Shown: positions 8,563 to 28,546 of the stretch, in pieces
Numbering within the stretch: the first letter of the stretch is position 1
Layout of the letters: each line of letters begins with the position of its first letter
Source: Zymomonas mobilis
GTDB lineage: Bacteria > Pseudomonadota > Alphaproteobacteria > Sphingomonadales > Sphingomonadaceae
Assembly (NCBI RefSeq): GCF_006715975.1
Contig: NZ_VFOF01000001.1
Span: 1,560,001 to 1,624,000, forward strand
Length of the DNA: 64,000 nucleotides
Direction: 5' to 3'
Position numbers and translations under genes: made by a program
The notes under the pieces: generated by a model
The model's database searches: none
What the model was told of the DNA's origin: nothing
Seen by the model: the letters and a program-made list of their open reading frames with translations, nothing else

Positions 8563-8611
8563 ACTTTGCCAAATTATCTAGATTTAGGTCATCATGCTTC
8601 TTTTAATATAT

Positions 8612-8645: not shown

Positions 8646-8679
8646 ACGATCAAGATTCGCACAAATACCGTTGTTAGAT

Positions 8680-8898: not shown

Positions 8899-9054
8899 AT
8901 AAAAATTCTCATAATATGTAATTTTCTGTAAAATATAGTTAAAATAGGCAGTAATCAAGGAACAACTATATAACTTTATATGAAAATAAAGGCACTAAAA
9001 TCAATATATTATATTGAATAGCAATCATATGTTTTAAAATAACCTGCTCTTATC

Positions 9055-11882: not shown

Positions 11883-12534
11883 TGATCCCCCCTGCCATAG
11901 CGATATGCCCGCGATCCATTACCACGATGGATTGCGCCAGAGCATAAGCAAAATCAAAATATTGTTCTACCAACAGAATGGCCATGTCTCCGCGATTACG
12001 CAATAAGGCGATGACGGAACCGATATCTTTAATAATGCTGGGCTGGATACCTTCTGTCGGTTCATCCAAGACCAAAAGACGCGGGCGAATAACCAAAGCG
12101 CGGGCAATAGCGAGTTGTTGTTGTTGTCCGCCGGAAAGATCGCCTCCACGGCGGTGCATCATTTGAGCAAGGACAGGAAAAAGGTCGAAAATCTCGTCCG
12201 AAATTTTCCGTTCATGGCGAGGTAAAAGACCAAGGCCGGTTTCCAGATTTTCTTTGACAGTCAGAAGCGGGAAGATATCCCTGCCCTGTGGCACCGTGGC
12301 GATGCCTCTTCTGGCTCTTTCATAGGCGGGTAAGCGGGTGATATCCTCCCCTTCCCAGAGTATCCGACCGGAAGTGACCGCATGCATCCCCGTGATAGCG
12401 CGAAGCAGGCTGGTTTTTCCGACCCCGTTTCGCCCCAATATACAGGTAGCTTCCCCAATAGATGCCTGACAAGAAACCCCGCGCAAGGCGACGGCCGCAC
12501 CGTAATGAAGACGGACATCTTCTACTTTTAGCAT
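11839..12534 (-). CDS. urtE: Urea ABC transporter ATP-binding subunit UrtE
   Basis: A 231-residue ATPase of the LivF/UrtE type. Walker A is GRNGVGKTSLL (about 34-44), the signature is LSGGQQQQLAIARAL, and Walker B is LLVLDEPTEGIQPSII. The phrase DEPTEGIQPSI and the length favour UrtE over LivF, and the urtABCD context agrees. With UrtD it powers urea import through UrtB/UrtC. AAAGGAT precedes the ATG, and the gene starts about 60 bp after urtD ends. Confidence 0.95.
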   Translation of the reverse strand: MLKVEDVRLHYGAAVALRGVSCQASIGEATCILGRNGVGKTSLLRAITGMHAVTSGRILWEGEDITRLPAYERARRGIATVPQGRDIFPLLTVKENLETGLGLLPRHERKISDEIFDLFPVLAQMMHRRGGDLSGGQQQQLAIARALVIRPRLLVLDEPTEGIQPSIIKDIGSVIALLRNRGDMAILLVEQYFDFAYALAQSIVVMDRGHIAMAGGINEFEEDKIRSYISI

Positions 12535-12593
12535 ATCATATCCTTTGCATCGGAAAATCAGGCATAGTCTGGAAAACAGGTTTGAAGCGCGGT

Positions 12594-13334
12594 TTAACGC
12601 CCCAGATAAACTTCGATTACACGAGGATCGGCACTGACGGTGTCGAGATCACCTTCAGCCAGAACGGAGCCCTCATGTAAGACGGTGACGGTTACCCCCA
12701 AGGCACGCACGAAATCCATGTCATGTTCGACAACGACAACACTGCGGGTTTTGTTGATTTCTCGTAATAAATCCGCGGTTGCCATGGTTTCGGCATCGGT
12801 CATGCCAGCGACAGGTTCATCCACCAGTAGCAATTCAGGATCCTGTCCCAGTAACATTCCGATTTCGAGCCATTGTTTTTGACCATGGCTCATCCCGCCC
12901 GCGGGTTTATCGGAGAGAGATTCTAGCCGGATTAATTGGAGAAGATCAGCAACCCGTTTTTCTTCTTCTTTTGTGATATGAGAGAATAGGACAGAGAAAG
13001 GCGAACGCAGTCCTTTCAAAGAAAGCAACAGATTATCCCATACCGACAAAGCTTCAAAAACGGTTGGCTTTTGAAATTTTCGACCAATGCCCAAACGGGC
13101 AATCGCAGGATCATCCATCCGCGTAAGGTCATGTCCCCGAAAAGTGACGGTGCCTTTATCGGGGCGGGTTTTTCCGGTGATGATGTCCATCATTGTGGTT
13201 TTACCCGCGCCATTGGGCCCAACAATCGCCCGCATTTCACCCGTTTTAAGATGAAGCGAAAGGTTGTTGATGGCACGAAAACCATCAAAAGTGACACTAA
13301 CATCCTGCATTGCCAAAAGCCATTTATCGGTCAT
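12594..13334 (-). CDS. urtD: Urea ABC transporter ATP-binding subunit UrtD
   Basis: A 246-residue ATPase of the LivG/UrtD type. Walker A is GPNGAGKTTMMD (about 38-49), the signature-region helix is SHGQKQWLEIGMLL, and Walker B is LLLVDEPVAGMTDAE. DEPVAGMTDAET is typical of UrtD. The family motif GRKFQKPTVFEALSVWDNL is also present. Its start overlaps the end of urtC by 11 bp, indicating translational coupling. It forms the ATPase pair with UrtE. Confidence 0.96.
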   Translation of the reverse strand: MTDKWLLAMQDVSVTFDGFRAINNLSLHLKTGEMRAIVGPNGAGKTTMMDIITGKTRPDKGTVTFRGHDLTRMDDPAIARLGIGRKFQKPTVFEALSVWDNLLLSLKGLRSPFSVLFSHITKEEEKRVADLLQLIRLESLSDKPAGGMSHGQKQWLEIGMLLGQDPELLLVDEPVAGMTDAETMATADLLREINKTRSVVVVEHDMDFVRALGVTVTVLHEGSVLAEGDLDTVSADPRVIEVYLGR

Positions 13335-14469
13335 GTTCGGATTCCTCTGGCTCGATAATTTCGGGGGTCACTTCTTCCGATTTCTTACGCAGATGATGCC
13401 CTAATCCCATGATGCCATTGGGGAGAAACAGCGTCGTTAGGATGAACATTGCACCCAGACTATAAAGCCAGAAATCGGGTAACCATGTCGTAAAGACGGT
13501 TTTTCCGAAATTGACCAGAATTGCCCCAATGACAGAGCCGACCAAGGTGCCACGTCCACCAACCGACACCCAGATAACAGATTCAATGGAATTGGACGGT
13601 GAAAATTCGCTGGGGTTAATAATGCCGACCTGTGTGACGTAAAGCGCGCCGCCGATACCGGCAATCATGGCCGAGAAAACCCAGATAACCAGTTTAATTT
13701 GTTCCGGTCTGTATCCCAAAAAGCGAGTGCGGCTTTCTGCATCCCTGACAGCCAGCAGCAGATTACCAAAGCGGCCACTGACAATCCAACGAGAGATCAG
13801 GAGCGCTGCTGCGAGAAAGATACCTGTGACGATCAAAAGCACGGCACGGGTTGAAGAAGCGTGTAAATCCGCCCCGAGAATATCTTTAAAGTCGGTCAGG
13901 CCGTTATTACCGCCAAAGCCAAGGCCATTTTGGAAAAAAGCCAGCATCAAGGCGTAGGTAAGCGCTTGTGTGATAATCGAAAGATAAACACCGGATACCC
14001 GAGAACGGAAAGCCAGCCAGCCGAAGATACCGGCAAGAATAGCAGGCACAGCCAAAACGAGCAGAGCAACCCATACGAGATGTTGGCTGCCCCACCAATA
14101 GAAAGGCAGATGATCCCAAGAGAGGAAAATCATAAAATCAGGAAGATTGGGATTACCATAAGCGCTGCGTGTGCCGATTTCGCGCATCAGATACATGCCC
14201 ATGGCATAGCCACCCAAAGCGAAGAAGGCCGCATGTCCCAAGGTCAGAATACCAGCAAAGCCCCAGACGAGATCAACCGAAAGTGCCAACATCGCATAGG
14301 CAAGATATTTACCCGCCAATGTCATCACAAAAGGAGAAACATGAAACAGGCTGTTTTCCGGTAGCAGGCTGGCACCGGCTAGTGTGACCGAGAGCAGAAA
14401 GACGGCCACGGCCATGACGACAGCACTGGAAAACGGGCGTTTGGCCGGAGTGGAAAGACGTGAACTCAT
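13324..14469 (-). CDS. urtC: Urea ABC transporter permease UrtC
   Basis: A 381-residue inner-membrane permease of the LivM/UrtC type. Family blocks are DLVWGFAGILTLGHAAFFALGG, RVSGVYLSIITQAL, FGGNNGLTDF and GRGTLVGSVIGA. The charged C-terminal tail (about residues 350-381) is cytoplasmic. It forms the urea channel together with UrtB. The start overlaps the urtB stop as ATGA at 14466-14469. Length and sequence fit UrtC better than a branched-chain amino acid permease. Confidence 0.96.
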   Translation of the reverse strand: MSSRLSTPAKRPFSSAVVMAVAVFLLSVTLAGASLLPENSLFHVSPFVMTLAGKYLAYAMLALSVDLVWGFAGILTLGHAAFFALGGYAMGMYLMREIGTRSAYGNPNLPDFMIFLSWDHLPFYWWGSQHLVWVALLVLAVPAILAGIFGWLAFRSRVSGVYLSIITQALTYALMLAFFQNGLGFGGNNGLTDFKDILGADLHASSTRAVLLIVTGIFLAAALLISRWIVSGRFGNLLLAVRDAESRTRFLGYRPEQIKLVIWVFSAMIAGIGGALYVTQVGIINPSEFSPSNSIESVIWVSVGGRGTLVGSVIGAILVNFGKTVFTTWLPDFWLYSLGAMFILTTLFLPNGIMGLGHHLRKKSEEVTPEIIEPEESEHDR

Positions 14470-16127
14470 GATTCAACTCCTCTTCCCCGTAACGGGAACA
14501 TGCCGCGAGGATGGCGTTGGATATAGACAATAACCAAAACCAGAATGGCAATTTTGGCAGAGACGGCACCGATGGAAGGTTCCAGAACTTTGTCCCCCAT
14601 CCCCAAGGTCATGGCACCAGCAAAGGTACCCCACAGATTGCCAACCCCACCGAAGACCACCGCCATAAAGCTGTCGATGATATAGTTTTGGCCAAGATTG
14701 GGGCTGATATTGTCAATCTGGGTTGCGGCGACCCCCGCTAAACCAGCGATGCCGGAACCCAACCCGAAGGCGAGTGCGTCAACGCGCGGGGTTCTGACAC
14801 CCATCAAGGCGGACATCCGTCTATTTTGGGTGACTGCCCGCATTTCAAGACCGATAGAAGTACGCCGCAAAGTCATCATCAATGCCCCAAGAACGGCAAA
14901 GGCGAAAAGGAAAATAACCAGACGGTTAAGCGTAATTTCAATCCCACCCAGCATAAACGACCCCGCCAACCAGTAAGGCGTTGTGATTTCGATATTCGTT
15001 GCCCCGAAGAGCGAACGGATCGCTTGTTGCAAGATGAGAGATAGCCCCCAAGTCGCCAATAAGGTTTCCAAAGGCCGACCGTAAAGGAAGCGAATAAGGC
15101 CACGTTCGATCAGGACACCCAAGGCACCGCAGGCCAAAAAGGCCACCGGCACGGCCACAACCAAGGCGAAAGGATCAAGCGCAGGAAAGACCGTATGGAT
15201 GCTTTGTTGCACCAGATAGGTCACATAAGCGCCAATCATAATCAGTTCGCCATGCGCCATATTAATGACGCCCATAATGCCAAAGGTAATCGCAAGACCC
15301 GTTGCCGCCAGCAGCAGCACCGAACCATAGCTGAGACCGTAAAAGGCATTTTGCAGCAAGTCCCAAAAGCCAAGGCGAAATTCGATACTGGAGACTGCTT
15401 TTTTAGCGGATTGTTTGACCGATTGACTTTCAAGGGATGAAGCCGCGATACGACAGAGAATATTATGGGCATCAAGGCCGCCCGATTTTTTCAAGATCGC
15501 AATCGCTTTCAAGCGCGCGTTATCACCCGTTGCCAAAGGCGTTTCGGAGAGAAAGGCCGCTGCTTGAGCTTTTTCGAACGCTAGCTTTACTTTCTGGTCT
15601 TTTTCCTGTGCTAAAGCCGCGCTGATTTTCGGTGTAAAGGCCGGTATCGCATGGCTGTATAAGGTGTCAGCAGATTGAAGCCGCGTCGCAGCATTGGGCG
15701 AAGAAAGGCCGAAAAGCGCTGTTGATGTCACCAAAGCTAGTCGGACTTTGTTATTGATACGGACAGGCTTTAATCCGTCATCCGTAAGGCTGATTTTTTG
15801 TCCGCTGCGGATATCGGCATAGCCATTTTCTTTTTCGAGATAAAGCCCGTGGCGGCTATCTTGATAAAGGGCGTTTGTCTGCAAAGCTGAGACAATGCTT
15901 TTTGCCCGATCAGGATCAGAAAGAGCCAGCGCCGAGACGGTTTCTGCGATCTGGTTAAATTGCCCCGATGCCAAGCCCGATAAGGGATCACCCGAAGAAT
16001 CCGGTGATGAAGTGGTTATCGCGTTTTCGGCTATGGCCTTTTGTATTTTTGCATAGCCGGTTGCCCCATAGGCCAGCGAAAAGACAAGGAACATAGCCAG
16101 AAACAATGATTTTGCTGATTGATTCAT
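14466..16127 (-). CDS. urtB: Urea ABC transporter permease UrtB
   Basis: About 553 residues. A signal-like hydrophobic N-terminus and a roughly 240-residue extracytoplasmic extension precede a LivH-type permease domain. That long extension is the distinctive mark of UrtB. The permease part shows LAITFGIMGVINMAHGELIMIGAY, ERGLIRFLYGRPLETLLATWGLSLI and FMAVVFGGVGNLWGTFAGA. I chose the ATG at 16127, which overlaps the urtA stop as ATGA, over the upstream start at 16175 inside urtA. Confidence 0.95.
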   Translation of the reverse strand: MNQSAKSLFLAMFLVFSLAYGATGYAKIQKAIAENAITTSSPDSSGDPLSGLASGQFNQIAETVSALALSDPDRAKSIVSALQTNALYQDSRHGLYLEKENGYADIRSGQKISLTDDGLKPVRINNKVRLALVTSTALFGLSSPNAATRLQSADTLYSHAIPAFTPKISAALAQEKDQKVKLAFEKAQAAAFLSETPLATGDNARLKAIAILKKSGGLDAHNILCRIAASSLESQSVKQSAKKAVSSIEFRLGFWDLLQNAFYGLSYGSVLLLAATGLAITFGIMGVINMAHGELIMIGAYVTYLVQQSIHTVFPALDPFALVVAVPVAFLACGALGVLIERGLIRFLYGRPLETLLATWGLSLILQQAIRSLFGATNIEITTPYWLAGSFMLGGIEITLNRLVIFLFAFAVLGALMMTLRRTSIGLEMRAVTQNRRMSALMGVRTPRVDALAFGLGSGIAGLAGVAATQIDNISPNLGQNYIIDSFMAVVFGGVGNLWGTFAGAMTLGMGDKVLEPSIGAVSAKIAILVLVIVYIQRHPRGMFPLRGRGVES

Positions 16128-17464
16128 GATTTGTGGCCAATACATGTGTGGGTCAGGGTATTGTAATTGCCGCAATGGACGGCTGCGCTCCAGTCACCGA
16201 TCAGCCCCTTGCTTTCAGGAACCCAAGGCGACCACGCCTGCCCTGCAATTGGTTCGGGGGTCTGCCAGACCGTGTTGAATTGACCATCTTTCTGGATTTC
16301 ACCGATATAGACCGGTTTGGTGATATGGTGGTTTGGCAGCATGGTGGCGACACCGCCCGTCAGATTGGCTTGGCGAATGCCGATCATGGCATCAATGACC
16401 TTGTCATGGTCAGTTGTGCCAACTTTGTTAACAGCCTGTACCCACATATTGAAACCGATATAATGGGCTTCCATCGGGTCATTGGTGGTGCGTTTAGGAT
16501 TGTGACTGAAGCGATGCCAGTCTTGGATGAAAGCTTTGTTTTTAGGGGTATCGATGCTTTCGAAATAATTCCATGCGGCAAGCTGACCTACCAAAGCGTG
16601 GGTATCCATGCCTGCCAATTCTTCTTCACCGACACTGAAAGCCATGACCGGAATATCAATCGAAGAAATGCCGTGATTGGACAGTTCTTTATAAAAAGAA
16701 ACATTGGCATCGCCGTTAATGGTCGAAACAACGGCGGTTTTCTTGCCCGCATAGCCGAATTTTTTGATACGAGAGACAATCGTCTGCCAATCGGATTGAC
16801 CGAAAGGCGTATAATTGATCATGATATCTTCGGCTGGGATGCCTTTCGATTGAAGATAATTCTGCAATATCCGGTTGGTCGTGCGCGGATAGACATAATC
16901 TGTCCCCATCAGGACAAAACGCCTTGCAGAGCCGCCTTCCTCGCTTAAGAGATAATCAACCGCAGGTATTGCCTGTTGGTTGGGAGCAGCACCGGTATAG
17001 AAAATATTCCGGCTGCATTCCTGTCCTTCATATTGGACAGGGTAAAAGAGAATACCGTTTAATTCTTCAAAAACAGGCAAGACCGATTTTCGGGAAACAC
17101 TTGTCCAGCAACCGAAAACGGCAGAAACTTTGTCCATGGACAGTAATTGCCGTGCTTTTTCAGCAAACATTGGCCAGTTGGATGCGGGATCAACAACGAC
17201 CGGCTGTAAAGGTCGACCGAGAAGACCACCTTTTTTATTTTGCTGATCTATCAGCATCAGCATCAGATTTTTTAAAGTCGTTTCGCTGATGGCCATTGTG
17301 CCGGATAAGGAATGAAGAATACCGATTTTGATCGGTTCCCCTTTCGGCTCGGCAAAAGCTTTACCGCTGCCTATTATGCCGCCCATTGCTGCCATTGATG
17401 AAAAAAGAGCAATCCGTGCAAAGTCACGGCGGGTAAGAGAAGGCATAGAAACAGGCATAGGCAT
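16124..17464 (-). CDS. urtA: Urea ABC transporter substrate-binding protein UrtA
   Basis: A 446-residue periplasmic binding protein. It starts with a twin-arginine-type signal (LTRRDFARIALFSSMAAMG), so it may be exported folded through Tat. The mature part contains IKIGILHSLSGTMAISE, FGCWTSVSRKSVLPVFEE and GILFYPVQYEGQE, blocks typical of UrtA/FmdD urea and amide binding proteins. It is the first gene of urtABCDE and the nickel permease. A dyad at 17513-17530 lies about 50 bp upstream of its start and is a candidate operator shared with the divergent two-component genes. Confidence 0.96.
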   Translation of the reverse strand: MPMPVSMPSLTRRDFARIALFSSMAAMGGIIGSGKAFAEPKGEPIKIGILHSLSGTMAISETTLKNLMLMLIDQQNKKGGLLGRPLQPVVVDPASNWPMFAEKARQLLSMDKVSAVFGCWTSVSRKSVLPVFEELNGILFYPVQYEGQECSRNIFYTGAAPNQQAIPAVDYLLSEEGGSARRFVLMGTDYVYPRTTNRILQNYLQSKGIPAEDIMINYTPFGQSDWQTIVSRIKKFGYAGKKTAVVSTINGDANVSFYKELSNHGISSIDIPVMAFSVGEEELAGMDTHALVGQLAAWNYFESIDTPKNKAFIQDWHRFSHNPKRTTNDPMEAHYIGFNMWVQAVNKVGTTDHDKVIDAMIGIRQANLTGGVATMLPNHHITKPVYIGEIQKDGQFNTVWQTPEPIAGQAWSPWVPESKGLIGDWSAAVHCGNYNTLTHTCIGHKS

Positions 17465-17512
17465 TGATCCTTTTACTGTTTCTCTATTTTGGCTAAAACA
17501 AAGGAACTTCCT

Positions 17513-17530
17513 ATACGCAATCCTGCGTAT
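17513..17530. promoter_or_regulatory. Candidate response-regulator operator between urtA and the hybrid kinase
   Basis: A perfect dyad ATACGCA-N4-TGCGTAT. It can also be read as two TACGCAR heptamers in the 7-2-7 tail-to-tail layout used by NarL-type regulators. Very similar 7-4-7 dyads lie upstream of the porin (23341-23358) and ureD (28479-28496). All lie 45-70 bp from start codons. The regulator at 20926-21816 is the natural candidate ligand. This is inference. Confidence 0.6.
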
Positions 17531-17599
17531 GACAGGCGCGTCTTGATCCCGTAGAATATATCAAGAAAGCCCATAATCACGGATTATAAAGGACGCAGG

Positions 17600-20500
17600 G
17601 TGAGATCATCCTTTAACAAAAACTATCTGCGTATTGCCCGCGTAAGACGAGCATATAACCGTTGGGTCGCCGATCAGAGTTTTGAAGATTATGCGCTGCG
17701 TTTTACTGCCTTATCCGCGCGCCAGAAAAATCCGTTAAAAGTTGCCTTTACCGCACTGGGATCGGTGTCATTTATGGCGTTGGAAGCGATTGGCGGTAGT
17801 CTGACTCTGGCCTTTGGTTTTCAGAATACCGTTCTTGCTATTTTGCTGATTACGGCCATTATTTTTTGTATTAGCATTCCGCTTTGTTTTATGGCGGCTA
17901 AAAGCGGTCTTGATATTGATCTTTTAACCAGAGGCACCGGATTTGGTTATATCGGATCAACCATTACCTCGCTTCTTTATGCCAGTTTTACCTTTATCTT
18001 TTTTGGTATTGAGGCGGCTATTCTGGCGAATACGATTAACGCCTTTCTTTTTATACCATTACCCATTGCCTATTTGCTGTCTGCGATTGTGGTTATTCCT
18101 TTGGTGGCACGGGGTATTACCTTTATTTCCCGTTTTCAGATAAGCACGCAGCCGATTTGGTTTATACTGAATTTTTTACCCTTGGCGGTTATTCTCATAA
18201 GTCATCCTGAATGGGTAAAGGAATGGACGCATTTTACCGGTAATGCTCCGTTATCGGGGAAAGCAGACATTGTGGCGATTGGTTATGCCGCATCAATCAT
18301 GTTTGTTTTAATTTGCCAGAGTGCCGAACAGGTCGATTTTTTACGTTTTTTGCCCCCAAGGACGACTGAAAACTATTGGAAATGGTGGACGGCCTTGTTG
18401 ATGGGAGGCCCCGGATGGATTCTGTGCGACTGTTTTAAGTTACTGGCAGGTTCTTTTTTGACCTCGGTTATTATCAATAGAGGGTTTTCGCTAGCGATGG
18501 CGATTCAGCCTTGCTGGATGTACCGCTTTGCCTATGGCACATTCGCCTCGCCTGCCCTCGCAACCGGCCTGACTTTAGGCCTTATCACGATTGCCCAAAT
18601 CAAAATTAATGCGACCAATGCTTATGCCGGATCGCTGGCATGGTCGAATTTTTTTTCCCGCTTAACCCATAGTCATCCCGGACGGGTGTTTTACGTCTTT
18701 TTCAATATCGCGATTGCCCTATTGCTGATGGAAGCTGGATTAGTCGATACGATTCAGACCGGCATTATCCTTTATGCGGTATTTGCCGCCGCGTGGATTG
18801 GGGCGATATTAGGCGATATCGTTTTATGTAAACCGATGGGTTTTAGTCCCGAAGTCGATTTTAAACGGGCGGTTTTACCTGATTTGAATTTAGTCGGATT
18901 GGGTGCGACGGCTTTAGGGTGTTTATTGGGCATCCTATCCTTAAGCAGTGTTTTGGGCAGTCTTTCTGCGGCCTTTGCGCCTTTTGTGGCTTTGCTTGTA
19001 GCATGTTTTACCGCTCCTATTTTGGGATATGTGACAAAAGGGCGGAGTTACATTGCCCGTAACCTGCCTAAAAATTGGCAAGAAGGTAGCCTGAAAAAAA
19101 CCTGCGTTATCTGTGGGCATCAATTTGAAGTCGCCGACATGGCACCTTGTCCAGCCTATGGGGGCGCGATCTGTTCCCTTTGCTGTTCATTGGATAGCCG
19201 TTGTCATGATCGCTGCAAACCAGCGGTTTATCATTTTGCCTACCAATTATTATATCCGCTTCGTTATTTTTCAGCGCCTATCAAAAGAGGAATTTTGTCC
19301 CCTTTCGGGCGGTTTATTTCTATTATGTTGACCGTCTCTTGTGTTTTGGGCGGGTTAGCTTTTTATGCCGGTGAGAAATGGCATAACGCCTTCATCATTG
19401 TGTTTTTGGTGGCATCTGTTGTGGCTTGGCTGATCGTATTGGGACAAGATGGTCAGCGAAAAGCCAATCGGGAAACCTTATACCAGACCCGTTTATTGAT
19501 GAATGAAATCCGCGCCCATCGCCGAACAGATGAAGCATTAAAACAGGCAAGAGAAAAAGCCGAGGCAGCAAGTTTAGCGAAAACCCGCTATATCAGCGGG
19601 ATTAGCCATGAGATACGATCCCCGTTAAATGCGATCATGGGGTATACCCAAATTTTGCAGCAAGATGGCCGTGTCCCAGAGGATCGGCAGCAAGCTTTGC
19701 ATATCATGCGGGAAAGCGGTGAACATGTGACGGCTATTCTTTCCGGTTTATTGGATATCTCACGTATTGAAGCCGGACGGATCAAAATTTATCGGGACAA
19801 GATTGAACTGTCGTCGTTTCTGGAAGCAGTTGTTCAGATGATGCGCCTACAGGCGCAAGAAAAAGGTTTGGATTTTTTCTATCATCACGGGGATTTGCCG
19901 TCTCTTGTCCATGGTGATGAATATCGATTGCGGCAAATTTTGATTAATCTGCTCTCCAATGCGATCAAATATACGAAGCAAGGTTCGGTTACTTTTCAAG
20001 TGCATTGGCGCAGCCAAATCGGCGAATTTCTGATTACCGATACCGGAGCTGGGATACGCCCAGAAGATAAAGAGCGCATTTTTGAACCCTTTGGGCGAGG
20101 TTCGTCCGCCACCGGCATTCAAGGCACCGGTTTGGGTCTGACGATTACAAAATTGCTGACTGAAGTGTTGGGGGGCGAGCTGACTTTTAAAAGTGAAGTT
20201 GGCAGCGGCACAGAGTTTCGGGTGCGTTTGATGCTGTCTGATATTCCACAGGATAGTTTACCGTTACCCAAGCGTATTCCAACAAATTACCAAGGTGAAC
20301 GCTGTCGAATTTTGGTGGTGGATGACAATGATGCCCACCGACATATTATGCGTGAATTTTTAGAACCACGCGGTTTTATTATCGAGGATGTAAATAGCGG
20401 GGAAGCCTGTCTTGAGAAGATCAAAGACTGGACACCAAATCTGATTTTGCTGGATCTTTCCATGCCGGGGATGGATGGTCAGGAAGTAGCCTTAAGAATA

Positions 20501-20929
20501 AGGAAAAGCCAGTTTTCTGCTATTCCGATTATATTTCTAACCGGTAATCTGGTTGAAAGCACCGATCGGCATGTGCCTTCATTAGAAGGATGTCCGGTTA
20601 TCGGAAAGCCCGTCAATTTAACGACCTTGATCAATGAAATCGGTCAGCAGCTACATTTGTCATGGATGTTTCCCAAACGGCAGATGGCAGAAAATCTTTC
20701 TGATGAAAAAGTCGAAGAAAAGATAGCGTCACGTTCCTTTTCAGAAGAAGAGCGAGCTATGCTGTTGGGGCTTTTGAATAGAGGGGATTTGAAAAAATTG
20801 CGGGAAGCTTTGACAACCCTACAGGCATCTATACCTGCTTTGTATGACGTGACCACTTCGCTGATAGCGATGGCGGCATCATACCAACTGGAAGCGCTGC
20901 GTCATGCGTTACAAAAGGAAACAGAATGA
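17600..20929 (+). CDS. Hybrid sensor histidine kinase with N-terminal NCS1-type permease domain
   Basis: An 1109-residue membrane protein. Residues about 45-490 form a roughly 12-helix permease-like domain resembling NCS1 purine/cytosine/allantoin transporters (ALEAIGGSLTLAFGF, LLTRGTGFGYIGSTI). A cysteine cluster (CVICGHQF...CSLCCSLDSRCHDRC, about 501-540) looks like a metal site. Two more helices and a coiled coil follow. HisKA has H670 in SHEIRSPLNAIMGY. The ATPase domain has NLLSNAIKYT, DTGAGI and GTGLGLTI. A receiver domain has D952 in LLDLSMPGMDG, then a helical tail. The start is GTG at 17600 with AAAGGA 6 bases upstream. It overlaps the downstream regulator as ATGA. Location between urt and ure genes suggests it senses or transports urea or a related nitrogen compound. 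Confidence 0.92.
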   Translation: MRSSFNKNYLRIARVRRAYNRWVADQSFEDYALRFTALSARQKNPLKVAFTALGSVSFMALEAIGGSLTLAFGFQNTVLAILLITAIIFCISIPLCFMAAKSGLDIDLLTRGTGFGYIGSTITSLLYASFTFIFFGIEAAILANTINAFLFIPLPIAYLLSAIVVIPLVARGITFISRFQISTQPIWFILNFLPLAVILISHPEWVKEWTHFTGNAPLSGKADIVAIGYAASIMFVLICQSAEQVDFLRFLPPRTTENYWKWWTALLMGGPGWILCDCFKLLAGSFLTSVIINRGFSLAMAIQPCWMYRFAYGTFASPALATGLTLGLITIAQIKINATNAYAGSLAWSNFFSRLTHSHPGRVFYVFFNIAIALLLMEAGLVDTIQTGIILYAVFAAAWIGAILGDIVLCKPMGFSPEVDFKRAVLPDLNLVGLGATALGCLLGILSLSSVLGSLSAAFAPFVALLVACFTAPILGYVTKGRSYIARNLPKNWQEGSLKKTCVICGHQFEVADMAPCPAYGGAICSLCCSLDSRCHDRCKPAVYHFAYQLLYPLRYFSAPIKRGILSPFGRFISIMLTVSCVLGGLAFYAGEKWHNAFIIVFLVASVVAWLIVLGQDGQRKANRETLYQTRLLMNEIRAHRRTDEALKQAREKAEAASLAKTRYISGISHEIRSPLNAIMGYTQILQQDGRVPEDRQQALHIMRESGEHVTAILSGLLDISRIEAGRIKIYRDKIELSSFLEAVVQMMRLQAQEKGLDFFYHHGDLPSLVHGDEYRLRQILINLLSNAIKYTKQGSVTFQVHWRSQIGEFLITDTGAGIRPEDKERIFEPFGRGSSATGIQGTGLGLTITKLLTEVLGGELTFKSEVGSGTEFRVRLMLSDIPQDSLPLPKRIPTNYQGERCRILVVDDNDAHRHIMREFLEPRGFIIEDVNSGEACLEKIKDWTPNLILLDLSMPGMDGQEVALRIRKSQFSAIPIIFLTGNLVESTDRHVPSLEGCPVIGKPVNLTTLINEIGQQLHLSWMFPKRQMAENLSDEKVEEKIASRSFSEEERAMLLGLLNRGDLKKLREALTTLQASIPALYDVTTSLIAMAASYQLEALRHALQKETE

Positions 20930-21816
20930 CCTTTTCATATGCCCATAGTCGCTATTCGGTTCTGGTGGTGGATGATGATCCCAAAGTTTTGGGCGTAATG
21001 GACGAAAAATTATCGCAGGCCGGTTATATCGTCCTTTTGGCGCAATCCGGTACAATGGCGTTGGAGGTCATGAAAAATACAGCCCCCGATATTGTGTTGG
21101 TGGATGCGATTATGCCGGAGATGACCGGCTGGGAAGTTTGCGCCCAGATTAAGCAGGATCTCCATTTTCATACGACCCCTGTCATTTTTATGACAGGGAT
21201 GACCGAGACTGAATATGTTTTGAAAGCTTTTGAAGCGGGGGCAGCCGATTACATTACAAAACCTTTTAAATTTGAAGAGGTATTGGCACGGGTCGCAGTC
21301 AGGTTAGAGGCGGCTTCTCGTATTAATGCGGCGCATTCCACTTTGGATAAATTTGGGCGTTTCCTGTTTGGGACGACGCAAGAAGGCGTTTTGTTATGGG
21401 CGACGCCTCAAGCCAGTGAAGCTTTGGATAAGTTGCCAAAGGGGACTATTCAGGATTTATCTTCTGCGGTGAAAACGGCAGAAAACGGAACAAAGCTTTT
21501 CAGCTATCAAACGCCCAAAGAGGAATATCGGATTACTTTTGTGGGTCGTCCCGCTGCGGATGAAATGATTTTCAGCATTTCTACCCATAACAGCCATCCT
21601 GAAAAAATTATTCAGGAGAAGCTGTCTCTTAGTAGTCGGGAAGCAGAAGTAATCCTGTGGATATCCCGTGGTAAATCCAGTCGTGATATTGCCGATATTT
21701 TGGATATCAGTCCGAGGACGGTCGATAAGCATATCGAGCAAATTTACAATAAAACCGGATTGAGTTCCCGTGCAGCAGCGGCCTCTACGGTTTCGCGGCT
21801 GTTACAGGAACTATAA
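20926..21816 (+). CDS. LuxR/NarL-family response regulator
   Basis: A 296-residue regulator. An N-terminal receiver domain has phosphoacceptor D60 in VLVDAIMPEMTGW and the conserved K in YITKPFKFEE. A linker of about 90 residues follows. The C-terminal LuxR-type helix-turn-helix is LSSREAEVILWISRGKSSRDIADIL and ISPRTVDKHIEQIYNKTGL. Its ATG overlaps the kinase stop (ATGA), so the two form a cognate pair. It probably controls the urea genes through the 7-2-7 dyads nearby (inference). It ends 3 bp from the convergent porin stop codon. Confidence 0.95.
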   Translation: MTFSYAHSRYSVLVVDDDPKVLGVMDEKLSQAGYIVLLAQSGTMALEVMKNTAPDIVLVDAIMPEMTGWEVCAQIKQDLHFHTTPVIFMTGMTETEYVLKAFEAGAADYITKPFKFEEVLARVAVRLEAASRINAAHSTLDKFGRFLFGTTQEGVLLWATPQASEALDKLPKGTIQDLSSAVKTAENGTKLFSYQTPKEEYRITFVGRPAADEMIFSISTHNSHPEKIIQEKLSLSSREAEVILWISRGKSSRDIADILDISPRTVDKHIEQIYNKTGLSSRAAAASTVSRLLQEL

Positions 21817-21827
21817 ATTTTATAGTT
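21809..21827. repeat. AT-rich palindrome across convergent stop codons
   Basis: Two 9-bp arms AACTATAAA and TTTATAGTT, separated by one base, contain the stop codons of both the response regulator and the porin gene. The AT content and near-absent loop make a classical terminator unlikely. It may limit read-through of convergent transcripts. Confidence 0.5.
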
Positions 21828-23274
21828 GTATCTGGGTTCGGATACCCAAGACAACAGCATTCCGATAGCGAGATTGAGCATTCGGACGGATCACGTATTG
21901 AATATCAGGCGTTAAATCAACGCCGTTATAGATATGTGCCGAATATTGAGCTTCGATGATGGATGTATAGGTCTGGGGATAGGCATCGCCGATACCATAG
22001 GCCTGTTCGAGGCGCTCGCTTCTTCTGGTGGCGGCACTTTGATGTGAATAGACAAATTGCACGCCGAAGCTATCTAATGGGCGGCTTTTGATGAGACCGT
22101 GGTCTTCGAGGCCAATGAAGGCGAGATCCTGAAAGACGGAGATATTGCCATCCGTATGGGAATAATTGGCAAATAAGGTTAAGCCTTGGTTAGCGCCTTT
22201 GCCATGCCGGATAAGCATTGCATCCATCCCGACCCATTCCGCCATATAACCACGCCGTTTTAGAGGATCGCCTCCATATAAGGCCATCGGTTGGCGGGCG
22301 GTATTGTAATAAACATCTTTGGCTGATCCGGTGGTGTAATAAAAACCAGCCTTGAAATGCATGGGATTTTCACCCGGATTTTGCCCCGGTGTCCAACCGA
22401 ATTCAAAGGGAACGGTGACGCCAGTCACGTCTTTGGTTGTCCATGAAAAACCAGAGCTGCCACCGAGATGGCTGTCAGCGCCAAAGACACCCGTTTGAAC
22501 ATAGAGATCATAACCCGGACTGTAGCGGGTATAGCCCCCGAAGGTATTCCCCGGAGCCATGGAGAATGCACCCTGACTACCGCCGCGGATGGCTTGCGGA
22601 GTGGGACAGATACCAAAAGAGAAGAAGGAGCAATAGATTGGTGAGCTGTTGAAAAACAGACCTGGGGATAAACGTCCGGCAGCAATAATCAATTTATCAT
22701 TCAGGAGGTTTTCTTGCCCATAAATATAGGCAAGATGGAGCGAATGCCCTGCCCCGCCCCAGATTTCACTTTCGTTATAAAGATTGTCACCGACATAATC
22801 GGGCCCGACCCCGTTACCGACACGATTGACCAGTAACAGATGGGTTGAAAAGCCTTTGATACCAGCGAGCTTTTGCCAATCAACATCTATTCCTAATGCC
22901 CGTTGATCGGCGTAATCAACCCCTGGTTTAATACCGCCGGAGACATTCCCAACAGATTCCCCCAGATAGTTAACGGTAAGATCAACGCCATGTGATTTGA
23001 GGGTTGTTAACGCCCCGCCCCAATCACCCAATAAATGTTGATCATGCGGAATAAGTTCAGCGGCGCTGGCATCAGGGGGTGTTGGTTCCGAGATGTTTTT
23101 ATCGGTTAAAGATAAAGTGGAGTCAGAATGACCCGAAGATTTTTCAGTCGCAAGATAACGAATTTTGGATAAGGTTGTGGCTTCTGTTGCGCCGGCATAA
23201 AGCGCCGACGCATTGAAAAACAAGGTCCCCCCTGCGATAATCTGCCTGATATTCTGTCTGCACCACAGAAGCAT
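21820..23274 (-). CDS. OprB-family carbohydrate-selective type porin
   Basis: A 484-residue outer-membrane protein with an N-terminal signal region (IIAGGTLFFNASALYAG). The OprB entry motif is HDQHLLGDWGGALTTLKSHG (about 77-96), followed by strands such as LLLVNRVGNGVGPDYVGDN, and the protein ends in an aromatic/hydrophobic beta-strand. OprB members let sugars through, but here the gene follows ureG on the same strand and has a dyad at 23341-23358 like those before urtA and ureD. Passage of urea or a related solute is therefore a reasonable inference. It is separated from ureG by 104 bp. Confidence 0.87.
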   Translation of the reverse strand: MLLWCRQNIRQIIAGGTLFFNASALYAGATEATTLSKIRYLATEKSSGHSDSTLSLTDKNISEPTPPDASAAELIPHDQHLLGDWGGALTTLKSHGVDLTVNYLGESVGNVSGGIKPGVDYADQRALGIDVDWQKLAGIKGFSTHLLLVNRVGNGVGPDYVGDNLYNESEIWGGAGHSLHLAYIYGQENLLNDKLIIAAGRLSPGLFFNSSPIYCSFFSFGICPTPQAIRGGSQGAFSMAPGNTFGGYTRYSPGYDLYVQTGVFGADSHLGGSSGFSWTTKDVTGVTVPFEFGWTPGQNPGENPMHFKAGFYYTTGSAKDVYYNTARQPMALYGGDPLKRRGYMAEWVGMDAMLIRHGKGANQGLTLFANYSHTDGNISVFQDLAFIGLEDHGLIKSRPLDSFGVQFVYSHQSAATRRSERLEQAYGIGDAYPQTYTSIIEAQYSAHIYNGVDLTPDIQYVIRPNAQSRYRNAVVLGIRTQIQL

Positions 23275-23340
23275 GATATTACCCCGATCCAGCCTTGTTG
23301 AAATCGGAGGTAATTTGGACAGAAAAAGCGAAAGACCGCT

Positions 23341-23358
23341 ATTCGCAATATTGCGTAA
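23341..23358. promoter_or_regulatory. Candidate response-regulator operator upstream of the porin gene
   Basis: The dyad ATTCGCA-N4-TGCGTAA has the same 7-4-7 geometry and TnCGCA/TGCGnA core as the sites at 17513 and 28479. It lies 67 bp upstream of the porin ATG, between ureG and the porin. This supports a separate regulated promoter for the porin. Confidence 0.55.
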
Positions 23359-23378
23359 AAACGCGAAAAAGAATTAAA

Positions 23379-23993
23379 TTATAACCCGCCTTGTTCCACA
23401 ATAAAGCGCGATATCGTTTCAACCCCGTCGCCTTTCCGAATATTGGAAAAGACAAAGGGCTTTTTACCGCGCATAATCCGGCTATCGCGTTCCATGACAT
23501 TAAGATCGGCACCGACATGGGATGCGAGATCAATTTTATTGATAACCAGCAAATCGCTGCGAGTAATACCGGGTCCCCCCTTGCGCGGGATTTTATCGCC
23601 TGCCGAGACATCAATAACGTAGATCGTCAGATCCGCCAATTCGGGGCTGAAAGTCGCTGCAAGATTATCGCCGCCGCTTTCAAGTAGGATAAGGTCAAGA
23701 TTGGGAAAACGATCATTTAAAGTCTGTATACCAAGCAGATTGATGCTGGCATCTTCACGAATGGCCGTATGAGGGCATCCCCCCGTTTCAATGCCGAGAA
23801 TTCGTTCTGGCGGTAGAGAACCAGCGCGGGTCAGGATTTGAGCATCTTCCAGTGTATAGATATCATTGGTAATAGCCGCGATATCGAATTGATCGCGAAA
23901 ACGCCGACATAAAGCGTCCATTAATGCCGTTTTTCCCGTTCCAACGGGCCCGCCAATACCTACCCGTAAAGGCCCATGTTTATGTAATGTCAT
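23379..23993 (-). CDS. ureG: Urease accessory GTPase UreG
   Basis: A 204-residue GTPase that drives nickel delivery into urease with UreD, UreF and UreE. The P-loop is [13 protein letters not shown] (about 14-26). Family motifs are [29 protein letters not shown] (with the metal-binding Cys-Pro-His), [19 protein letters not shown] and VINKIDLA. Its start overlaps ureF as ATGA. Last gene of ureDABCEFG. Confidence 0.98.
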
Positions 23994-24664
23994 GTTCGGA
24001 ATAGCCTTGTCTGTTGAATTTCATGCTGCATAGAAGCGAGATCGGAACGAAAACAGCCGCTGCCCGTGTCTTCCAGCTTTTTACCGCGCGTTTTTGCTGC
24101 CGATCTAATAATATGATGTTCCAGTTGTTTCATGGCCTTTAAGCTGTCGCTTTGCCCTAACGGAATAAGCCGTAAGGCCGCCGAAATGATGCCCGATACC
24201 GCAACATAGGCACCGGAAATCGTCGAGAGATCCTGTTCCATATGGTTACGGCGAAAAAGGATACCTTGGGCGACAGGTAATGGCCAACGGATATCAGCCA
24301 TATCGGGGTCTTTTTTGAATAACGCCCAGATATCGGTTGCTTTCAAAAAAGCTTCCCCTTGATTCACGGTTTCTTCATAGCGTTCGCGAGAAGCGGCGCT
24401 GGCACAGGCGAATTCGGCAACCTGTCTTATTTCTTGGGAAGAGGATGCCGCCCAAGCTTGCCGAAGAAAGATCATATCCGACCGCAAGCTGCCATAATAA
24501 AGCAATGCCTTCACCCATATGACCAAAGAAGCCACATCGGTAATATCGCCATTATCAACCGACCATTCCAAGCCATGGCTATATGCATAGCTGCCCGTTG
24601 GGAAAGCGGGAGATATCCAAGAAAACATCCGAAGAAGATGAAGCGATTCCGAAGAAGAAGGCAT
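23990..24664 (-). CDS. ureF: Urease accessory protein UreF
   Basis: A 224-residue helical protein with the UreF blocks [19 protein letters not shown] and [10 protein letters not shown]. It bridges UreD and UreG in the nickel-loading complex. The C-terminal region ([11 protein letters not shown]-like, [12 protein letters not shown]) is conserved among UreF proteins. It starts 16 bp after ureE and overlaps ureG by 4 bp, consistent with a single operon. Confidence 0.95.
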
Positions 24665-24680
24665 ACCCGATCAAATGGCT

Positions 24681-25211
24681 TTAATGATGATGGCTGTGGT
24701 GATGGCCGCCATCAGCATGGCTATGATCGCTATGATCGCTATGATCGTGATGACTGTGACTATGTCCGTGGTCATCATCGCCACTATAAGCACCCGTTTC
24801 AGGCGAGAAGGCTTCGTCAACTTCGGCAACATAACCGCTGAGCTTTGTAACCATATTGGCAATCACATGATCGTTACGGATCAGGATATAATCATCATGG
24901 ATAGCGGCGGGTAAATGACGATTACCCAAATGCCATGCCAGCTTTAAAAGATGAAGAGGTGAGGTTGCCGTTACCCGCAGCAATTTTTCTTTTTGCGATT
25001 CAACCCGCACGATCCGATCATCCTCTAATTTTAACCCGTCACCTGTCATAAGGAGGCGCGGTTTTTCCAAGTCAAGCAGGGCATGCGCCCCTGATTGCAA
25101 CTCAAGCCGTTTTCGCCTTCTGTGCCGGCCTTCATAATCTGCGTGATAGACATCGGCGGCTTGATTTTCGTCCCAGCTACCCGCTGGCAGGATTTCGATA
25201 ATGCGCATCAT
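24681..25211 (-). CDS. ureE: Urease accessory nickel metallochaperone UreE
   Basis: A 176-residue metallochaperone. The N-terminal domain has the RKRLELQSGAHALLDLEKPRLL block, and the C-terminal domain has HLGNRHLPAAIHDDYILI with its conserved nickel-binding His. The protein ends in a long His/Asp-rich tail (about residues 148-176, some 15 histidines) that can bind several nickel ions, as in Klebsiella UreE. The start codon follows the ureC stop directly. Confidence 0.97.
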   Translation of the reverse strand: MMRIIEILPAGSWDENQAADVYHADYEGRHRRRKRLELQSGAHALLDLEKPRLLMTGDGLKLEDDRIVRVESQKEKLLRVTATSPLHLLKLAWHLGNRHLPAAIHDDYILIRNDHVIANMVTKLSGYVAEVDEAFSPETGAYSGDDDHGHSHSHHDHSDHSDHSHADGGHHHSHHH

Positions 25212-26918
25212 TCAGAACAAAAAATACCTTTGAGCCATAGGGAGAATTCCCGCTGGTTCACATGTTAACAAAACGCCGTCTGCCCGAACTTCATAGGTTT
25301 CGGGATCGACTTCGATAATCGGCATAGCATCATTGTGAATCATGCTATGTTTTCCGATATTACGAGTATTCGATACCGCCGAAAGTGGGCGTTGTAGGCC
25401 CAATTCCACCCCGATATCAGCTTCAAGTGCAGATTGAGAGACAAAGGTCAGGCAGCTTTCAGTCAATGCCCGTCCATAGCCCCCAAACATCATACGGCCA
25501 TGCACCGGTTGCGGTGTAGGTATAGATGCGTTGGGGTCCCCCATCATTGCATAGACAATCGAGCCGCCTTTGATAACTAGATCCGGTTTAATGCCGAAAA
25601 AGGCAGGATCCCATAAGACAAGATCGGCCAGCTTACCGTCTTCAATCGAGCCGATTTCTTGGGATAGGCCATGCGATATCGCCGGATTGATGGTGTATTT
25701 CGCAATATAGCGTTTGACGCGGTTATTATCGGCGGCACTATCTCCAGCAAGCGAACCGCGTTGGCATTTCATTTTATGGGCGGTTTGCCATGTCCGGATA
25801 GCGACTTCACCCACGCGTCCCATGGCCTGACTATCCGAGGACATCATCGAAAGTGCGCCCATATCCTGAAAAATATCTTCGGCGGCGATCGTTTCTTTGC
25901 GAATACGGCTTTCTGCAAAAGCGATATCTTCTGGCACATGGGGATCAAGATGATGGCAGACCATCAACATGTCCAAATGCTCGTCTAATGTATTGACGGT
26001 ATAAGGACGGGTTGGATTGGTTGAAGAAGGCAAAACATTAGGTAAACCGGCAACCCGAATGATATCAGGTGCATGACCGCCCCCAGCCCCTTCGGTATGG
26101 AAGGCGTGGATTGTTCGGCCTTGGAAAGCGGCAATGGTATCATCGACAAAGCCACCTTCATTCAAGGTGTCGCTATGGATCATTACCTGAACATCCATGC
26201 GATCAGCGACCGACAAACAGCAATCAATCGCGGCAGGTGTTGATCCCCAATCTTCATGTAGTTTGAGGCAGCAAGCCCCTGCCCTAACCATTTCTTCCAA
26301 AGCAGCGGGAGAAGAAGCGTTACCTTTCCCTGCAAAAGCGAGATTAACAGGTAGCCCTTCGGCGGCTTGTAGCATCCGTCCAAGATGCCAAGGCCCCGGT
26401 GTGCAAGTTGTTGCCGCCGTTCCGGTCGCAGGCCCTGTGCCGCCGCCCAGAAGAGTCGTAAATCCAGCAGAGAGTGCTTCTTCCACCTGTTGCGGGCAGA
26501 TAAAATGGATATGGCTATCGATTCCGCCTGCAGTCAGGATACGCCCTTCACCAGCGATGATCTCTGTTCCTGCGCCAATGATAATATCAACTTTGGGTTG
26601 AATATCGGGATTACCAGCCTTGCCAATTTTATAAATACGGCCATTTTTAAGGCCGACATCGGCTTTGATAATGCCCCAATGATCGATAATGACAGCATTG
26701 GTGATAACCGTATCGACGGCACCTTCTTGATTGGAATAGGAAGATTGTCCCATTCCGTCACGAATGGTTTTGCCGCCGCCGAATTTAACCTCTTCACCAT
26801 AGACGGTGCGGTCTTGTTCGATTTCTATCAGCAAAGCGGTATCGGCCAGCCGGATTCTGTCGCCTGTCGTCGCGCCAAAGATGCCTGCATATTCAAAACG
26901 GGAAAGGCGTGTCATCAA
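25212..26918 (-). CDS. ureC: Urease subunit alpha UreC
   Basis: The 568-residue catalytic subunit, hydrolysing urea to ammonia and carbamate. All active-site residues are visible: H136 and H138 (DSHIHFICP), carbamylated K219 (CLKLHEDWG), H248 ([11 protein letters not shown]), H274 ([15 protein letters not shown]), flap C321-H322-H323 (MVCHHLDPH) and D362 (SSDSQAMGR). Length is normal for the family. It overlaps ureB by 4 bp. The enzyme appears intact and should be active if nickel is supplied. Confidence 0.99.
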
Positions 26919-27256
26919 TCAAGATTCCCCATAACATCTCCACGGAAACCAATTACTTTTCGTAACCCCCTAAAGGGAACAAGCCGAACTTCGCGTTCTT
27001 GCCCCGGTTCAAAACGTAAAGCGCCGCCGGACGGAATATCTAATCGCCAACCTAAGGCCTGCGCCCTGTCAAAATCCAAGGCTGGATTGACCTCTGCAAA
27101 ATGATAGTGGCTGCCCACCTGTATCGGACGATCACCTTTATTGGTTACCAACAGGCAACGGCGCGGTTGCCCTTGGTTGATCTCGATATTCCCTTCGGCG
27201 GGTAATATTTCGCCGGGGATGGCATCTTGTTCGAGGGGGTCATCGTATTGGGTCAT
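26915..27256 (-). CDS. ureB: Urease subunit beta UreB
   Basis: A 113-residue structural subunit with [17 protein letters not shown] near the N-terminus, and [21 protein letters not shown] and [19 protein letters not shown] further on. These are the standard UreB blocks. The start lies inside ureA (17-bp overlap), and the stop overlaps the ureC start as ATGA, so translation of ureABC is tightly coupled. Confidence 0.98.
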
Positions 27257-27542
27257 GCACCGTCACCAATTTCGTGCCATCGGGGAATGTTGCCTCGACC
27301 TGCACATCGTGAATCATTTCGGCTACGCCAGCCATTACTTGTGAACGGGTCAGAACCTTGCCACCGCTTTCCATCAGATCGGCAACACGGCGACCATCTC
27401 TAGCGCCTTCGACCACATGTTCGGTAATCAAAGCGATCGCTTCGGGATAATTTAATTTAACCCCGCGTTCCAAGCGGTTGCGCGCGACAAAAGCCGCCAT
27501 AGCAACCAATAGCTTGTCTTTTTCCCTGGGCGTTAATTTCAT
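27240..27542 (-). CDS. ureA: Urease subunit gamma UreA
   Basis: A 100-residue subunit of normal length. It begins [20 protein letters not shown] and contains [24 protein letters not shown] and [24 protein letters not shown] lies just upstream of the ATG. It forms the urease trimer with UreB and UreC. Confidence 0.98.
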
Positions 27543-27600
27543 AATCCTGATGCCTTTTTGTTTTTCGCAGAGGGATTTTTAAACACGGCCTTCCAATCCA

Positions 27601-28434
27601 TTAGAAACGCCATGTTGATGGTTCCGAACGGTTATGGCGAATAAAATGTAATAGGCGTCGCCATTGTTTTTCATTTTCTCGCCCATTGGAAGACAGAGAA
27701 CGAATAACCAGCATGTGGTTCCATGCAGAGGCCGCAAATTCAGAGTTGTGATCGTTAGGTAATAATGGCCGTAACTCTGCCAGCTTTTCTTCAGCCAAAG
27801 GAGAAACCCAGACAAGGGTCGATAAGACGGGTCGGCCTTGGCTGACCGCTTTTAAGGAAAGTAATCGGCGGTTGATCGTATCCAGCTGGATAATGTCTTC
27901 CATGATAAGCTTGTTACCCCGTCTTATAGAAAGGCGGTCATAAAAGCTGATATGGGAAGCGGATTCATTGAAAGCCTGCCGTCCGAATATCCGGCTTTCG
28001 AGAAATAGAAATTCGGAAGAATCCGCCATGTCGACGGCAAATTTTCTTTGAATTTTGCTGCCGTCAAAGAAAATGCTGCTATGTGGCAGCCATTCTAGAA
28101 TAGCGTTTTCAGCAATTTTGCATTCAGTGTTGACGGTGGCCGCCTTGTCAGTGGAGCGGGCTTTATAAATGCGTTCAGCAGCTTGAGATGTCACCAAAAG
28201 ATGAGCATTAGGATGGCATTGCAGAAAACCTTCTATTTGGTCACCTGCTGCAATTCCGCCAGATATATTAACCGTAACGGCTTCTAAGATGTGATCTTTG
28301 GGATAGGGAAAAAGTAAACGGCAGCAGCCTTCTTGCCGAAGAGAGGCGAGACGGCTGGCTTTGGTCGAGGCCTGAACCTCTAATGCGAATTTTCCTAATG
28401 CCCGCTGGAGGGTATTTGTGCCATTATTCACCAT
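27601..28434 (-). CDS. ureD: Urease accessory protein UreD (UreH)
   Basis: A 277-residue scaffold of the nickel-insertion complex. Family blocks are LGKFALEVQASTKASRL, CCRLLFPYPKD, TVNISGGIAAGDQIEG, LVTSQAAERIYKA and AILEWLPHSSIFFDGSKI. It is the first gene of the urease operon and is 58 bp from ureA. A dyad at 28479-28496 lies 45 bp upstream of its start. Confidence 0.97.
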   Translation of the reverse strand: MVNNGTNTLQRALGKFALEVQASTKASRLASLRQEGCCRLLFPYPKDHILEAVTVNISGGIAAGDQIEGFLQCHPNAHLLVTSQAAERIYKARSTDKAATVNTECKIAENAILEWLPHSSIFFDGSKIQRKFAVDMADSSEFLFLESRIFGRQAFNESASHISFYDRLSIRRGNKLIMEDIIQLDTINRRLLSLKAVSQGRPVLSTLVWVSPLAEEKLAELRPLLPNDHNSEFAASAWNHMLVIRSLSSNGRENEKQWRRLLHFIRHNRSEPSTWRF

Positions 28435-28478
28435 GCCACGTCCATAAGCATATAATAAGCTTATGAGGTATAAAGAAG

Positions 28479-28496
28479 ATACGTAAAATTACGCAT
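28479..28496. promoter_or_regulatory. Candidate response-regulator operator upstream of ureD
   Basis: ATACGTA-N4-TACGCAT, flanked by GAT and ATC bases that extend the dyad (28478-28497, one mismatch). It has the same 7-4-7 geometry as the sites upstream of urtA and the porin, 45 bp before the ureD ATG. Confidence 0.5.
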
Positions 28497-28546
28497 CTAA
28501 AATCTATGGCCAGCCATCACATTTTTAATTTTTTATCAAATTCGGC

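Follow-up and report, generated by a model that had tools for sequence, protein, structure and literature searches.

What joins the genes for urea uptake, a hybrid sensor kinase, a porin, and urease that stand side by side in Zymomonas mobilis? In the window (i.e., the whole stretch of 64,000 nucleotides analyzed here, positions 1,560,001 to 1,624,000 of contig NZ_VFOF01000001.1 in assembly GCF_006715975.1), a sequence-only reading had described three 18-bp inverted repeats (dyads) upstream of these genes and had assigned them to one regulon under a LuxR/NarL-type regulator encoded between them. The dyads were verified at 17513 (dyad 1, between the urtA and kinase genes), 23341 (dyad 2, before the porin gene), and 28479 (dyad 3, before ureD). 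We consider it highly probable that they serve as operators for the response regulator of LuxR/FixJ type whose gene lies at 20926-21816, and that it works by the sensing and activation scheme set out below. They are predicted to be docking sites for this regulator, since across Proteobacteria the same gene pair is accompanied by this box, placed at a similar distance from the promoter, and the cross-species comparison supports the idea of a single regulon. The urtA/kinase and ureD sites very likely belong to it, and the porin site probably does. The observations behind this view are the sites themselves, their conservation, a preferred spacing to -10-like hexamers, and an association with the presence of the kinase.

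Three dyads and their rarity in the genome

The sites had been described as matching 7-4-7 dyads. All three are present, and perfect symmetry is found in dyad 1 alone (7/7 arm pairs, compared with 5/7 in dyad 2 and 6/7 in dyad 3). The heptamer proposed for them, TACGCAR, fits both halves of dyad 1; dyad 2 (TTCGCAA/TACGCAA) and dyad 3 (TACGTAA/TGCGTAA) deviate from it, and across the aligned sites the half-site is better written as TACG(C/T)(A/C)A. The gaps between dyad and start codon are 48 bp for urtA, 69 bp for the kinase gene (GTG start), 66 bp for the porin gene, and 44 bp for ureD.

Searching the 2,101,633-bp genome with TACGYANNNNTRCGTA (TACGYA-N4-TRCGTA) and allowing at most one mismatch returned three places, which are exactly the three dyads; equally good sites elsewhere, a possibility raised together with the original proposal, were not found by this search. 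Within the window, a pattern fitted to all three dyads gave five matches at three places, versus 0.72 expected. Both patterns were composed after the sites were known, and independent evidence was therefore needed. A reversed-pattern control of the genome search (218 matches, versus 43 for the pattern) was set aside, the reversed form being taken as a commoner word. Loose matching carries no signal, since a scan with a pattern derived from dyad 1 and up to three mismatches found 21 places in the window, the number expected by chance (21).

The independent test was a matrix built from 43 relatives, from which the window and the Acetobacter/Komagataeibacter rows (L020, L021, L023, and L024) were excluded. 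Across the 64-kb window, this matrix ranked dyad 3 first (21.3 bits), dyad 1 second (16.9 bits), and dyad 2 third (8.0 bits). In 4 Mb of sequence simulated with a first-order Markov model, equal scores occur 0, 0.25, and 32 times per Mb, respectively. Three other genomes of the genus that lack the regulator contain no perfect site and zero to two one-mismatch sites each.

Conservation at the urtA/kinase promoter

A kinase-based alignment yielded 80 named loci (the best 80 of 574); L013 to L016, which came from an earlier search, were excluded for matching the kinase half only. The dyad (matching at 10 or more of the 14 scored positions) is present in all 66 intergenic regions in which the kinase gene diverges from urtA within 900 bp, a count made without a separate control. 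L047, L050, L076, and L097 yielded no dyad above the cut. A de novo motif search of 48 nonredundant regions (47 relatives and the window) recovered ATACGTCAATTGACGTAT in three of four runs, with a score of 1144.6 versus 420 to 436 on three shuffled sets; the remaining run became stuck at a poorer solution (score, 591).

For validation, the matrix was frozen, and 71 later-fetched loci were scored; these were not filtered for near relatives of the first set and may include some. In 53 of them, the 700 bp upstream of the kinase gene contain a site scoring 10 bits or more, compared with 0/71 kinase coding stretches of equal length and 1/71 shuffled upstream stretches; at 15 bits, the counts are 49, 0, and 0 of 71. 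Conservation upstream of orthologous urea genes, which had been suggested as a check, is thus seen in the footprinting by sequence comparison, in the later-fetched loci, and at the ureD genes of relatives (see below).

Two variants of the site were observed among the relatives. Six Pseudomonas-type loci (L064, L067, L071, L078, L088, and L095) have two tandem dyads 22 bp apart in the urtA-kinase gap. A one-sided form, in which a TGGGG-type half faces an intact half, occurs at L012:19281, L024:21499, L091:3652, and L099:9572 and in L205.

Intergenic inverted repeats can also be transcription terminators. That the dyads are terminators or other RNA hairpins is nevertheless extremely improbable: the arms are short, the loops have 4 bases, and no clear T run follows (read from the sequence, with no folding or terminator scan); dyad 1 is flanked by the start codons of two divergent genes, and its letters are conserved across loci.

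Association of the dyad with the kinase-regulator pair

Across genomes, the occurrence of the dyad follows that of the kinase-regulator pair rather than that of urt genes in general. Among 91 urtA matches outside the Zymomonas genome, 29 urtA loci were tested, with the presence of the kinase scored at an E value of ≤1e-150. A dyad of 12 bits lies within 800 bp upstream of urtA in 0/18 kinase-less genomes (highest score, 6.5 bits) and in 4/11 kinase-bearing genomes (Fisher P = 0.014); in three of these four loci, the kinase gene is outside the 1.5-kb flank.

Urea genes are often under nitrogen control in other bacteria, which gives some grounds for assigning the dyads to another regulator (e.g., a general nitrogen regulator) that controls the same genes. 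We regard this as very unlikely in view of the dyad-free kinase-less genomes, the dyad at the pair's own promoter in every one of the 66 divergent loci, and the covariation, imperfect as it is, between the half-site and the recognition helix of the regulator.

The helix residue that tracks the half-site is D267 in the window, which we take to be aligned with a base-contacting residue of NarL. TACGTCA halves occur in 45/46 N-type loci and 0/31 others of a first set and in 73/83 N loci and 0/47 loci with D, Q, or T of an enlarged set. Four loci with no regulator match (L060, L061, L072, and L076) and L047, L050, and L097 are absent from these counts. A quick kinase tree (the trees are all quick ones, with long-branch warnings) contains five residue-class changes and up to five independent pairs, none of them opposed, with a median sign-test P value of 0.0625; given these numbers, the covariation is suggestive only.

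Other target promoters in relatives

In Acetobacter and Komagataeibacter, the dyad also precedes ureD (L020, L022, L023, and L025, with the one-sided form in L024). A second dyad to the left of the urt genes was looked at in ten gammaproteobacterial loci. An open reading frame (ORF) whose start resembles that of a formamidase lies within 400 bp to the left of it in seven (L032, L052, L063, L068, L071, L094, and L095), and all five of these ORFs that were scanned match the formamidase family PF03069; in L051, L064, and L078, the 400 bp next to the second dyad yielded no formamidase-like ORF of 200 residues. When the genomes of five relatives were searched with two forms of the pattern, every zero-mismatch match fell on an already fetched urea-cluster site, except for a second set in Acetobacter estunensis (G059). 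Contig C82 of that genome carries inverted, identically spaced dyad sets at 198110-209337 and 330390-341617. An Enterobacter plasmid (L182) carries urtABCDE, a formamidase gene, the kinase gene, and a dyad at L182:7532.

Promoter geometry and proposed mechanism

The best -10-like hexamer (ties counted) lies 21 to 24 nt from the dyad in 24/29 promoters, drawn from the window, six Acetobacter/Komagataeibacter loci, and L026. In 44 nonredundant divergent loci, -10-like hexamers peak toward the kinase gene at 21 and 23 nt (z scores, 7.1 and 9.3; 95% of shuffle maxima are below 3.3). In the same direction, no TTGACA-like -35 hexamer exceeds the shuffle limit; toward urtA, a single weak peak was found at offset 7 (z, 3.6; limit, 3.17). 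A -10 spacing of 21 to 24 nt would place the dyad center near -43, a geometry that would suit an activator bound near -43, with the dyad replacing the -35 element.

Geometry alone is no proof of activation, and dyad 1, facing two promoters, could block both if the regulator were to repress them until urea or phosphorylation lifted the block. Repression at the dyads is still unlikely, because the dyad edge mostly lies 21 to 24 nt before the -10-like box, where an activator can replace the -35 element, and because PMC5715377 describes activation from an inverted repeat by CrbR, a LuxR-type regulator that works with a transporter-fused kinase.

Under the activation scheme that we favor, the hybrid kinase (17600-20929) would sense urea or urea supply through its N-terminal half, which has a predicted NCS1 fold, and would phosphorylate the adjoining response regulator. 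A regulator dimer would bind the 16- to 18-bp inverted repeat centered at about -43, in place of a -35 element, and would then activate urtABCDE-nicT, its own kinase-regulator operon, the porin gene, and ureDABCEFG, with dyad 1 probably serving both divergent promoters (i.e., those of urtA and the kinase gene). Urea as the ligand of the kinase is suggested by the gene context.

Observations at variance and the porin site

Several observations weigh against the reading of the dyads as operators of one regulon. Five promoters miss the preferred -10 spacing (those of urtA, the kinase gene, and ureD in L024, of urtA in L026, and of the porin-slot ORF in L021). Toward urtA in the divergent loci, the -10-like signal is divided between 11 and 20 nt (z, 5.8 and 5.2), and lesser peaks occur at offset 40 toward the kinase gene (z, 3.7) and at offsets 45 and 8 toward urtA (z, 3.3 and 3.2). 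Seven of the 11 urtA genes in kinase-bearing genomes have no site. The same applies to 18/71 later-fetched loci when 10 bits are required and the 700 bp next to the kinase gene are considered; these include an incomplete contig (L169) and three loci in which no regulator was detected (L157, L170, and L171). In the genomes of the five relatives, one-mismatch matches outside the urea clusters were found at 20 and 9 places with the two patterns, so that specificity there is below that in the Zymomonas genome. Ten of the 83 N-type loci lack a TACGTCA half, and a Sinorhizobium meliloti locus outside the covariation set (L183) has a TACGTCA site together with T as the recognition-helix residue. Because these loci break it, a strict two-way correspondence of helix residue and half-site was rejected.

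The remaining points of this kind concern the porin site, which is the weakest of the three. It scores only 8.0 bits and practically ties with an unrelated position of the window (4015); it is marginal by itself, and its support is mainly positional. A match by chance, with only the urtA/kinase and ureD sites being real, would account for this score and its 32 equals per Mb, for the 5/7 arm pairs, and for the weak -10-like box (one of eight equal hexamers), and the gene that occupies the porin slot in relatives is not a recognizable porin. We nevertheless hold chance to be the less likely explanation, if a serious one, since about 0.003 matches of this grade are expected in the 104-bp gap and since L020 to L025 all carry a dyad in the matching gap, before an ORF that adjoins ureG.

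The identification of this slot ORF as a porin was not upheld. The ORFs of L020 and L024 have no Pfam match at an E value of ≤10, and that of L020 shows no homology to the window porin in BLASTP (E value, 0.27) and no relative among solved structures. Judged from its C-terminal end, it may be an outer-membrane protein. Slot ORFs with their own upstream dyads lie at L020:14696-15946 and L024:14753-16102.

Sensor kinase and response regulator

A structure model of the N-terminal 617 residues of the kinase (pLDDT, 80.5; pTM, 0.82) matched CodB in a Foldseek search (E value, 1.2e-9; TMt, 0.81). In structural comparisons, CodB (Z, 34.6; 394 residues; root mean square deviation, 3.4) and Mhp1 (Z, 30.1) stand above the other APC-fold carriers (Z, at most 24.1; SLC5-type carriers, about 21 to 24). 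By this model, the N-terminal half of the kinase has the fold of NCS1 transporters. A profile of the same region had no match among the sequences of solved structures, and the NCS1 assignment is therefore one of fold only; no transporter family appeared among the Pfam matches of 33 members of the kinase family at an E value of ≤0.1.

The linker between sensor and kinase has no STAC-type Pfam match at an E value of ≤5 (the presence of a STAC model in the library was unchecked) and contains eight cysteines (residues 502, 505, 517, 525, 528, 529, 535, and 539; window positions 19103-19216) that are invariant in 33/33 sequences. This segment (residues 502 to 539) has no convincing Pfam match and is likely to be a metal-binding or redox linker. 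H670 of the kinase is invariant in 4/4 sequences, and D60 of the regulator, presumably the phospho-acceptor aspartate, is invariant in 38/38. The regulator matches the Pfam families Response_reg (2.1e-29) and GerE (8.3e-16) and has, in addition, a middle domain about 100 residues long; in a fold search, RpaA came ahead of StyR (rank 2) and FixJ (rank 4). Homologs of the regulator (E value, ≤1e-40) are found on 486 plasmid records, 336 of which are from Klebsiella.

Gene cluster and island

The features of the locus are listed in Table 1. The same gene order (i.e., urtABCDE, kinase-regulator, ORF, ureGFECBAD) is found in Acetobacter and Komagataeibacter (L020 and L022 to L025; L021 is a shorter contig). 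In the congener G001, about 1.2 kb separates the matches to window positions 10856 and 28547, so that the region from nicT to ureD, including the three dyads, is a single block absent there. Two other congeners are uninformative, as the left flank differs in G002 and the contig ends in G003, and the absence of the island is therefore that in G001. The G+C content of positions 10881-28434 is 48.3%, versus 43.4% for 1-9000 and 44.7% for 28547-64000. In the quick tree, the window kinase groups with those of Acetobacter/Komagataeibacter, which is consistent with horizontal gain of the island; loss in the congeners may instead account for its absence there. A small contig of the same genome (C3; L180) carries type I-C cas genes and is related to Zymomonas plasmids.

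TABLE 1 Features of the urea gene cluster in the window
Feature	Position	Strand	Remarks
17.7-kb block	10857..28546	.	Missing at the corresponding place in congener G001 (flank comparison)
Nickel transporter (NicT/HoxN family)	10881..11882	-	Family match below curated cutoff
urtB, urtC, urtD, urtE	11839..16175	-	ORFs; synteny with relatives
urtA, urea ABC transporter binding protein	16124..17464	-	TIGR03407, 553.7 bits (cutoff, 492.75)
-10-like CAAAAT, urtA promoter	17486..17491	-	22 nt past dyad 1
Dyad 1, ATACGCA-N4-TGCGTAT	17513..17530	.	Between divergent urtA and kinase genes
-10-like TAGAAT, kinase promoter	17552..17557	+	22 nt past dyad 1
Hybrid sensor kinase	17600..20929	+	Predicted NCS1-fold N-terminal domain, 8-Cys cluster, HisKA, HATPase, receiver
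Response regulator	20926..21816	+	Receiver, middle domain, GerE/LuxR-type helix-turn-helix; D267 in recognition helix
OprB-family porin	21820..23274	-	Domain scan
Weak -10-like TCCAAAT, porin	23313..23319	-	3/6 consensus letters, one of eight equal hexamers
Dyad 2	23341..23358	.	Upstream of porin; weakest of the three
ureG, F, E, C, B, A, D	23379..28434	-	G, C, and D scanned; synteny
-10-like TATTAT, ureD promoter	28452..28457	-	22 nt past dyad 3
Dyad 3	28479..28496	.	Upstream of ureD

Relation to known systems

With regulators of the NarL/FixJ type, the module shares a receiver combined with a GerE helix-turn-helix and a dyad readable as a 7-2-7 tail-to-tail arrangement. The NarL heptamer consensus is TACYYMT, whereas the fourth base of the conserved core is G here, and the regulator has the extra middle domain. 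Clusters for formamide and urea use (fmd) combine FmdA with an amide-urea ABC transporter; the same dyad stands before formamidase genes in the gammaproteobacterial relatives, whereas the enzyme here is urease. No such regulator-operator pair was found in the open-access literature searched.

The closest known system is CrbS/CrbR of Pseudomonas and Vibrio, in which an SLC5/STAC hybrid kinase acts with a LuxR-family regulator and an ACTU motif; according to PMC5715377, activation by CrbR requires an imperfect inverted repeat that is conserved and lies at -52 to -36. The Zymomonas module appears to resemble it in logic: both have a transporter-like domain fused to a hybrid kinase, a LuxR-family regulator, and an inverted repeat, and the predicted dyad center near -43 is similar in position to the CrbR site. 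The sensor and operator differ, in that the sensor is nearest NCS1 carriers (CodB and Mhp1), the 8-Cys segment joins it to the kinase, the motif is TACG based and has another consensus, and the predicted targets are genes for urea and amide use. RpuS/RpuR of Sinorhizobium fredii, a pyruvate system described in PMC9100948, likewise has a transporter-fused hybrid kinase, a LuxR-type regulator, and a conserved promoter motif; it differs in its SLC5/STAC sensor and pyruvate targets, and NCS1 and urea are not mentioned in the main text of that paper.

PMC13296017 reports, from annotation, that a second set of urtABCDE genes has a two-component pair of the LuxR family next to it. The operator is not described in the available portions of PMC5715377, PMC9100948, PMC13296017, and PMC13022988. 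In the open-access literature searched, no description of the module or operator was found; most of the subscription literature lies outside that body, and an earlier description is possible.

We tentatively suggest, as something possible rather than probable, that these proteins form a widespread family of transceptor kinases that has apparently gone undescribed. In it, an NCS1 nucleobase-transporter fold would have been turned into a urea/short-amide receptor with an 8-Cys link and a TACG dyad on a mobile, self-regulating island. NCS1-fold transceptor kinases would form a second class beside the SLC5/STAC kinases (CrbS and CbrA). From sequence alone, the comparison offers a predicted operator, regulator, and target list for the use of urea and formamide by many Proteobacteria, and the association between helix and half-site allows the specificity of such a LuxR-type regulator to be tested directly in laboratory strains. 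The island suggests that the enzyme, transporter, sensor, and operators may be gained or lost together.

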